From an uncultured Verrucomicrobia subdivision 3 bacterium (lineage in GTDB: Bacteria; Verrucomicrobiota; Verrucomicrobiia; Limisphaerales; UBA8199): DNA of 49,394 nucleotides. The DNA is taken from the NCBI GenBank assembly GCA_903913865.1, contig CAIWMU010000105.1, forward strand, positions 1 through 49,394, written 5' to 3'. The position numbers and the translations under genes were made by a program. Shown here piece after piece: positions 9,590-15,338 of this stretch. Each line of letters opens with the position of its first letter. Within the stretch, counting starts at the first letter, position 1. The notes under the pieces were generated by a model, which had not been told where the DNA came from, did not search any database, and saw nothing but the letters and a program-made list of their open reading frames with translations.

Positions 9590-9768
9590 TGCATTTTGAT
9601 CCAGATTTGCGGTCTGCGCCACCTCCGGAAGTTGCGAAACCCCGCGAATGCCCGCCGAAAGAACTTGCCTCTCTGGAAAGCCATGCCAAACTGAAAATCA
9701 AACACGAATGTTTTTTGCCGGGTTGGTGATCACAGCTGAATGAATAAAAATAAAAGTCAGGGGGGCCA

Positions 9769-10407
9769 TTGAGCCGCCCATTTCCCTCCCGTTTTCAATC
9801 CCGCGAACCCGCGCATCGACGTAACGGCAAGATCCGTGCACGCGAAGTCCGGGTGATCGATGAAACCAAGCAGCAGCTCGGGGTGATGTCCCTGGATGAG
9901 GCCCTCAGGTTATCCCGCGTGAAGGGTCTTGATCTCGTGGAGGTGGCAGCCACCGCAACGCCACCCGTCTGCCGGATCGTGGATTACGGCAAGTTTCTTT
10001 ACGAGGAGTCCAAGCGCGCCAAGGAATCTCAGGCGAAGCAGGCTGCCAACAAGATGAAGGAACTCCAGATCTCGGCCGCCATCGACCCGCACGATCTCGG
10101 TGTTAAACTTAACCATGCCATCGAGTTCCTGTGCGATGACATGAAGGTCCGCGTCAAATTGCGCTTCCGTGGCCGCCAGCGTGCCCACAAGGAGATCGGT
10201 TTTGAGGTCGTCAACAAGTTCGTCAGGGAACTCGCCGCATACGGCCAGGCGGATGCGCCACCCAAGATGCTCGGCGACAGGGATCTGAACGTGGTGATCA
10301 GCCCGCTACCCCGCAGCAAGCGCCCGGTCAGACCGCGTTCGAATGAGGAACCCCCCGAGGAACCCACTCCTTCCGCAAAAGCCCCTCCCGAGCCTGAGGA
10401 CGAATAG
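9769..10407 (+). CDS. infC: Translation initiation factor IF-3, TTG start
   Basis: IF-3 binds the 30S subunit, prevents premature 50S joining and rejects non-canonical initiation. The N-domain signature appears as NGKIRAREVRVIDETKQQLG, then VAATATPPVCRIVDYGKFLYE; the C-domain contains KMKELQISAAIDPHDLGVKL and VRVKLRFRGRQRAHKEIG. There is no ATG in frame before the N-domain. The best start is TTG at 9769, preceded by the Shine-Dalgarno-like run CAGGGGGG. Rare start codons on infC fit the known autogenous control by IF-3, as with AUU in E. coli. The C-terminus has an extra acidic, proline-rich tail (212 residues against 180 in E. coli). The usual downstream rpmI and rplT are absent. Confidence 0.95.
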   Translation: MSRPFPSRFQSREPAHRRNGKIRAREVRVIDETKQQLGVMSLDEALRLSRVKGLDLVEVAATATPPVCRIVDYGKFLYEESKRAKESQAKQAANKMKELQISAAIDPHDLGVKLNHAIEFLCDDMKVRVKLRFRGRQRAHKEIGFEVVNKFVRELAAYGQADAPPKMLGDRDLNVVISPLPRSKRPVRPRSNEEPPEEPTPSAKAPPEPEDE

Positions 10408-10433
10408 GTCCGGGTCAAAATCCGGTTCCGTCG

Positions 10434-10462
10434 TTGCCGTTCCTGTTAATGGGTTGTATAAT
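10434..10462 (+). promoter_or_regulatory. Sigma-70-type promoter before the desaturase gene
   Basis: TTGCCG at 10434-10439 and TATAAT at 10457-10462 are separated by exactly 17 bp. The -10 box is a perfect match and the -35 matches four of six. It would start transcription near 10469, inside the long nested palindrome, about 60 nt before the desaturase ATG. Confidence 0.7.
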
Positions 10463-10517
10463 ACATCCTGCTTGAAGCACCATTCCGGTGTCTTGAGCAG
10501 GATGCCAGCAACCCATT
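10448..10517 (+). promoter_or_regulatory. Seventy-nucleotide nested palindrome in the desaturase leader
   Basis: Three nested pairs of arms: AATGGGTTG (10448-10456) with CAACCCATT (10509-10517); CATCCTGCT (10464-10472) with AGCAGGATG (10496-10504); CACC (10478-10481) with GGTG (10487-10490). The two long pairs are perfect 9-mers. The -10 box lies in the internal loop between the outer and middle arms. RNA begun upstream would fold into one long hairpin ending 10 nt before the ATG at 10528. RNA begun at the local promoter would contain only the middle and inner parts. No T-run follows, so it does not look like an intrinsic terminator. Confidence 0.7.
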
Positions 10518-10527
10518 TGCAATAACG

Positions 10528-11616
10528 ATGAACGATGTCCCGGGATTTACCCCCCTACACCCTGCAGGTTCCAGCCTCCCTGATTCCCGGCAGACCACGA
10601 TTTCCAAACCACCCACTTCCAACAGCCGGAACTGGAGGGATATTGTGGCGAAGTATCAGATCCCTGCCCCCTGGCGGAGCACCTGGCAGGCGATCAATAG
10701 TTTCGGCGGCTTCATCCTTTCGTGGTGCCTCATGTATTGGAGCATCCCCATTTCCCTCTGGATCACCCTCCCCCTCGCCGTGCTGGCGGGTGGATTCGTG
10801 GTCCGGGTGTTCATCATTTTTCACGATTGCGGGCACGGCTCCTTTTTTAAGTCCCGGCTGGTGAATGACATCCTTGGCACCCTCGCCGGAGTGGTTACCT
10901 TCACCCCTTACTTTCATTGGAGATGGGAACACTCCGTGCACCATGCCTCTGCGGGGAATCTGGATCGCCGTGGGACGGGCGACGTCTGGACTTTGACGGT
11001 CCAGGAATACCTCAAAGCCTCCCGTTGGAAGCGTTTTACCTACCGCCTTGTCAGGAATCCGGTGATTTTGTTCATCATCGCCCCGCTGTTATTGTTCCTC
11101 GTCCGGGAGCGTTTTCCCACGCGTGGTGCGGGTCGGCGTGAGCAGCTTTCGGTCTATGGGACAAACATACTCCTGGCCTTGTATGCGCTGATGATGGGCG
11201 GGCTCTTTGGCTGGAAAATGTGGATTCTACTCCAGCTGGTGGTCCTCACGGTGGCAGCCTCTGCAGGGGTCTGGCTCTTCTACGTGCAGCACCAGTTCGA
11301 GGGGGTCTACTGGCAGCGCCACGAAAACTGGGATTATCAGGAAGCCGCGCTTCAGGGCAGCAGCTTCTATAAACTGCCGCGAATCCTCCAGTGGTTTTCA
11401 GGGAACATTGGCTTTCACCACATCCACCATCTCAGCCCGAGGATTCCCAATTACAATCTGGAAAAGTGCCACAACGCCGAACCGCTCTTCCAAACCGTCA
11501 CACCGGTCACCCTGCTATCCAGCTTGAGGACGATGAATCTTCGCCTCTGGGATGAGCAGGAGCAACGGTTGGTGGGGTTCGGCGCGCTGCGTCGCAGACG
11601 CGCCGAACCCAACTGA
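10528..11616 (+). CDS. Membrane fatty acid desaturase
   Basis: An integral-membrane di-iron enzyme of 362 residues that introduces a double bond into acyl chains of membrane lipids, using electrons from a ferredoxin or similar donor. The three histidine boxes are complete: HDCGH (99-103), HSVHH (135-139) and HHIHH (297-301). Hydrophobic spans lie at about 57-97, 115-130, 178-192 and 212-255. The segment FYVQHQFEGVYW before the last box is typical of the bacterial DesA/omega-6-like group. Regiospecificity cannot be read directly. It has its own promoter and structured leader, consistent with regulation separate from infC. There is no clear Shine-Dalgarno before the ATG. Confidence 0.92.
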   Translation: MNDVPGFTPLHPAGSSLPDSRQTTISKPPTSNSRNWRDIVAKYQIPAPWRSTWQAINSFGGFILSWCLMYWSIPISLWITLPLAVLAGGFVVRVFIIFHDCGHGSFFKSRLVNDILGTLAGVVTFTPYFHWRWEHSVHHASAGNLDRRGTGDVWTLTVQEYLKASRWKRFTYRLVRNPVILFIIAPLLLFLVRERFPTRGAGRREQLSVYGTNILLALYALMMGGLFGWKMWILLQLVVLTVAASAGVWLFYVQHQFEGVYWQRHENWDYQEAALQGSSFYKLPRILQWFSGNIGFHHIHHLSPRIPNYNLEKCHNAEPLFQTVTPVTLLSSLRTMNLRLWDEQEQRLVGFGALRRRRAEPN

Positions 11617-15287: not shown

Positions 15288-15338
15288 GGGGTCAGTCCTC
15301 ACTTTTGACAGTAACTGTCAAAAGTGAGGACTGACCCC
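15288..15338. repeat. Perfect 25-bp inverted repeat with one-base loop
   Basis: The left arm at 15288-15312 (GGGGTCAGTCCTCACTTTTG then ACAGT) is the exact reverse complement of 15314-15338, around a single A. It lies between two minus-strand genes. No T-run follows on either strand, so it is not a classical terminator. The GGGGTCAG...CTGACCCC ends resemble REP-type palindromes mobilised by RAYT (TnpA-REP) enzymes, by recollection only. No RAYT gene is in the window. Confidence 0.9.

Follow-up and report, generated by a model that had tools for sequence, protein, structure and literature searches.

A strong nested fold-back between the gene for a second copy of IF3 and a fatty acid desaturase gene is the main finding of this study, and it is a real, single-copy, and non-random structure. 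It was found in the window, by which we mean the whole stretch of 49,394 nucleotides that was analyzed (contig C105 of a verrucomicrobial genome of 6.27 Mb), and its parts are listed in Table 1. We propose, with a probability of about 40%, that it is a genus-specific RNA boundary element at the IF3-desaturase junction. By computation, the full nested fold is strong and occurs in each of the two genus members examined, and a conserved promoter overlaps its 5' half. According to this proposal, the outer 5' arm and the lowest part of the inner stem would be missing from messages started at the desaturase promoter, and only transcripts continuing from the IF3 gene would be able to fold completely. 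On such read-through RNA, a helix would clamp the nucleotides directly ahead of the desaturase start codon, so that the RNA would be poorly translated into desaturase. The IF3 message has no intrinsic terminator, and the fold might in addition serve as a cap or protection for its 3' end. The desaturase would then be made mainly from its own promoter.

Table 1. Features of the IF3-desaturase junction, in window coordinates
Feature	Position	Strand	Remarks
Second IF3 gene (infC paralogue)	9769..10407	+	Upstream, co-directional; Pfam IF3_N/IF3_C, NCBIfam TIGR00168
Desaturase promoter TTGCCG-17-TATAAT (predicted)	10434-10439 (-35), 10457-10462 (-10)	+	10/12 matches
Outer stem, 5' arm AATGGGTTG	10448-10456	+	Exact; inside promoter spacer
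Inner perfect arms CATCCTGCT / AGCAGGATG	10464-10472 / 10496-10504	+	Exact
Inner stem, 5' arm, G-U counted	10464-10475	+	12 pairs; spans predicted transcript start 10468-10470
Top helix GCACC/GGTGT, 5-nt loop	10477-10491	+	Not present in sister genome
Inner 4-bp pair CACC / GGTG	10478-10481 / 10487-10490	+	Exact
Inner stem, 3' arm, G-U counted	10493-10504	+	Pairs with 10464-10475
Outer stem, 3' arm CAACCCATT	10509-10517	+	Exact
Fatty acid desaturase gene	10528..11616	+	FA_desaturase (Pfam)

The upstream gene, which the initial annotation had named infC, does encode IF3, with the qualification that it is a second copy, another being present elsewhere in the genome (at G000:C51:4330). The nearest NCBIfam model of the desaturase is Delta(5) desaturase DesA, with a match below the model cut-off, and a search of solved structures with this protein gave no match. 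The IF3 stop codon and the desaturase ATG are 120 nt apart, and no intrinsic terminator is predicted in 9600-10700, hence none between the two genes. Genes for the IF3 paralogue and the desaturase are often found close together: five of the 12 genomes having both carry them on one contig at most 3 kb apart, in differing arrangements. In G021, an RRM_1 protein gene sits between the two, which suggests a cold-response neighborhood. A literature search found no paper on the IF3-desaturase locus. As a separate observation, the IF3 gene is preceded by a 10-codon ORF (9740-9772) with its ATG at -29, whose TGA overlaps the TTG start of IF3 (TTGA). An ATG at -29 or -32, opening an ORF that ends at the same overlap, is found at 15 of 16 infC loci (L150-L165, two of them of a more distant type; L160 is without the leader ORF), and the peptide often reads MNN.QP..., so that judging from sequence this ORF looks like a conserved coupled leader peptide.

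The geometry initially described for 10448-10517 was borne out in every part: the two perfect 9-bp arm pairs and the inner 4-bp pair are all exact, the fold ends 10 nt before the ATG, and the TATAAT lies in the internal loop or at its edge. Weaker pairing widens the whole fold-back to about 10438-10527. The minimum free energy of 10436-10530 is -45.8 kcal/mol, against a mean of -20.8 (sd 3.3) for dinucleotide shuffles, none of which folded as well (z -7.66; 0/200). By GC-adjusted energy, the fold-back ranks second among 44,750 overlapping 95-nt stretches covering 449,394 bases (the window with 20 further stretches from its genome, + strand as given, in steps of 10). These 449,394 bases contain two sites with perfect 9/9 arms that are nested and separated, the fold-back and a continuous palindrome at 15288; first-order Markov copies of the window, 987,880 bases in all, gave two. 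That other palindrome (15288-15338, near-perfect over 51 nt, GGGGTCAGTCCTCACTTTTGACAG...) is the top GC-adjusted fold in the 449 kb examined and is possibly a REP-like element or a transposon end. Several other strong hairpins of the genome carry T-runs. The fold-back is without one, and an intrinsic terminator was rejected on this ground together with the terminator prediction above.

The initial annotation had considered that the palindrome might be scattered elsewhere as an unrelated repeat, and it was not found to be. Searches for dispersed copies returned one full match and seven short ones (E 0.31 or worse) in its own genome and three short, weak matches in 96 other genomes; a dispersed palindromic repeat (REP/MITE) or mobile element was rejected in view of the single full copy. 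Rfam 15 gave no match in the window at the gathering threshold and one chance-level match (E 0.81) below it, and a wider family pattern search with up to three mismatches gave chance-level matches except for the two genus members. An integron attC-like site, an idea that came from the GTT/AAC ends, was rejected because its polarity is opposite. Among 14 infC-paralogue loci, the fold is present only in the two with a desaturase directly downstream on the same strand; the other 12, where a desaturase is never directly next on the same strand within the flank examined, are without it, in keeping with a junction element. Folding of the 130 nt that follow the infC stop was matched by 0/200 shuffles in the window, 5/200 at the same-genus locus, 7/200 at L152, 17/200 at L156, and at least 36/200 at the other ten loci. 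An element of infC 3' ends in general was rejected, because folding is clearly better than in shuffles only in the window among these 14 loci. An element general to desaturases was likewise rejected, because the strong hairpins before the five other desaturases inspected (L113, L148, L082, L145, and L104) differ in sequence and place, the one before L113 having a T-run. Just upstream of the desaturase at L025 (G010), there is a long imperfect inverted repeat of GTTACAT-like units, unrelated in sequence.

The promoter inside the fold is the sole sigma-70-like site within 9600-10700. The pattern TTGCCG + 16-18 nt + TAnnnT within 120 nt upstream of the start, which was picked after the window had been seen, occurs at 11 of 80 distinct desaturase loci, the window and its sister being two of the 11, while 200 shuffles gave a mean of 0.08 and a maximum of 1. 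The loci counted were those whose desaturase match began by query residue 40 with 45% identity or more, that had a start codon close to the projected position, and for which 150 nt or more of upstream sequence was available; 86 loci passed, of which 80 were distinct. At L013 a GTG inside the leader was picked as start, and its distance was left out. Conservation in relatives thus supports TTGCCG-17-TATAAT as a real promoter. The distance from the end of the -10 to the ATG is 11-12 nt in four relatives (L078, L086, L088, and L113) vs 65 in the window, which suggests that the hairpin leader was added later in the window's genus. By eye, the GGGTT before the -10 is seen also in hairpin-less relatives such as L078, and the outer 5' arm may therefore be kept for promoter reasons alone.

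Since transcription is predicted to start within the inner stem, we infer that transcripts arriving from the IF3 gene are the only ones able to form the fold in full. That read-through and locally started RNAs would fold differently, as had been suggested at the outset, agrees with the predictions, in which the start falls downstream of the outer 5' arm. Both stems are predicted to form on read-through RNA, the inner with a probability of 0.85-1.0 in both genomes and the outer with 1.0 in the window and about 0.74 in the sister. A local message starting 6-8 nt after the -10 would be without the outer 5' arm and the inner-stem foot; in the window it would retain 6 to 8 inner pairs and the top helix, and the inner stem is predicted to hold for starts up to 8 nt after the -10, vs 6 nt in the sister. 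For the window, the predicted cost at 37 C of opening the stretch from -18 to +15 relative to the ATG is 7.2-9.6 kcal/mol on local RNA (seven starts, 10463-10472) vs 22.7-25.5 on read-through RNA. The order is reversed in the sister, at 6.3-7.2 for read-through vs 10.5-11.3 for local RNA (five local starts, 7-12 nt after the -10). The models thus predict a translational clamp in the window species, whereas in the sister they predict the fold and not the clamp. The idea of an anti-read-through device is partly supported: the predicted folds differ, there is no terminator, and the start in the window is predicted to be harder to open on read-through RNA, but this last point does not extend to the sister.

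Our comparison within the genus involves one sister genome, G001, two genomes altogether, and therefore counts as one evolutionary event; the hand alignment and the four-fold sites below both rest on it. Gene order in G001 is the same as in the window. The stretch GTTAATGGGTTGTAT (10445-10459), which contains the outer 5' arm, is kept there, the -10 is TATTAT, one change from TATAAT, and CAACCC of the outer 3' arm is kept at an arm spacing of 57 vs 58 in the window. The inner core CTGCTT/GAGCAG is common to both, and by hand alignment CATCCTGCTTGA/TTGAGCAGGATG of the window corresponds to CACTGCTTA/TGAGCAGTG of the sister, with three inner-stem pairs found on both arms in one genome and on neither arm in the other. 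The comparison with related genomes proposed at the outset thus shows a paired change in the one same-genus relative. The region in G001 folds with a z of -3.08, reached by 1/200 shuffles; taken singly, its helices are not rare, since the outer one of 7 Watson-Crick pairs arises in 70/3000 shuffles and its inner helix of 9 pairs in 196/3000, and both helices, with G-U allowed in the outer, in 106/3000. Four-fold site identity between the two genomes is 43% (42/97) and 31% (36/118), which is near saturation, so that mere recency is unlikely and the arms are probably kept by constraint, as far as sequence can tell. Two of the three paired gains or losses (10466-10467 / 10501-10502) precede the predicted start. 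If that start is right, the kept pairing includes bases that local messages should be without, which makes a hairpin at the local 5' end less likely than a function in read-through transcripts or an origin at the DNA level, for example by template switching.

The alternative that survives best, although we consider it unlikely, is such a 5'-terminal hairpin of the local desaturase message, in which the inner stem-loop would protect against decay as in the ompA leader, and the outer arms would be incidental or belong to the promoter. In both genomes the predicted start lies within the inner stem, 10463-10530 folds by itself at -28.4 kcal/mol (z -5.61), and stem-loops in 5' leaders are reported to be protective (PMC7509114). 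Against this, the sister's inner stem is predicted to be mostly lost at starts at least 7 nt after the -10 (probability at most 0.4), the pair-changing bases precede the predicted start, and the kept CAACCC of the outer 3' arm is unexplained.

A DNA-level possibility is that the hairpin is functionless, having been made and kept perfect by template-switch (quasipalindrome) mutation that copies one arm onto the other. This too we hold to be unlikely, and we place it second among the alternatives. Mutations of this type create and maintain perfect stems (PMC8794818), paired gains and losses are the trace expected of them, and the top helix differs between the window and the sister. However, free drift would be expected to shift the arms and their spacing, whereas the arms and core stem are kept though the four-fold sites are near saturation, and the leader alignment score is reached by 4/2000 shuffles.

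It is improbable that the outer inverted repeat consists of operator half-sites around the promoter, perhaps forming a DNA loop, with the RNA fold a by-product. Such sites would agree with an arm spacing that is almost constant despite the intervening sequence being largely replaced, and with an outer 5' arm at the -10, where a repressor would act. But TTAATGGGTTGT, with at most one mismatch, is not clearly enriched (14 vs control 7 in G000, 7 vs control 16 in G001), and the inner stem is unexplained. An RNA thermometer controlling access to the desaturase start had also been raised at first. Desaturases are classical cold-response genes and the RRM protein gene in one relative fits, yet we judge a thermometer very improbable, because the computed opening cost falls smoothly as temperature rises, the computed read-through fold stays closed from 10 to 60 C, the local leader changes gradually with no switch and in the window leaves the start largely open, and there is no Rfam match.

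A more ambitious form of the boundary-element reading, which we consider rather unlikely, is a chromosomal promoter-in-hairpin switch belonging to neither phage nor transposon. IF3 read-through RNA would be silenced and capped and local RNA would not, and rapid paired turnover of the inner stem would keep the fold while its sequence changes. If true, ordinary chromosomal neighbors would be insulated by RNA folding in place of a terminator, with the promoter forming part of the fold, and more cases could be sought by a simple rule, namely co-directional gene pairs with no terminator that are separated by a strong nested hairpin whose 5' half contains a conserved -10.

Parts of this arrangement recall known systems. 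Like an intrinsic terminator, the fold-back is a stable hairpin soon after an upstream gene, but unlike one it has no T-run. Insertion sequences have a comparable device: IS10/Tn10 is protected from external read-through by an inverted repeat that contains the internal promoter and, when transcribed from outside, folds so as to hide the start. The predicted behavior of the fold-back is similar, although it is single-copy in sequence and comes without a transposase or mobile element. As with 5' stabilizers of the ompA type (PMC7509114), a stable stem-loop is found where the message is predicted to begin, or close by; unlike in these, transcription is predicted to start within the stem, and the promoter lies inside a further, outer stem. 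The device has also been described for phage late genes, and for phage T4 I-TevI, segB, soc, and gene e, and Aeh1 mobE, PMC2988022 describes a promoter placed so that local transcripts are without the inhibitory hairpin. The fold-back differs in that the Shine-Dalgarno is sequestered there whereas none is evident here (no purine-rich one was seen on inspection of the 10-15 nt before the ATG at 10528), and that the desaturase gene is chromosomal and the sister genome is without occlusion. For want of an evident Shine-Dalgarno, and because the sister does not show the occlusion, we do not class the fold-back as a T4-type member. Nevertheless, as in the T4 leaders, the hairpin lies upstream of the gene, the long RNA would carry the whole structure and the local RNA would be without its 5' arm, and in the window species the start region is predicted to lie within a helix on the long RNA. 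The T4-type promoter-in-hairpin switch is the best-matching known mechanism.
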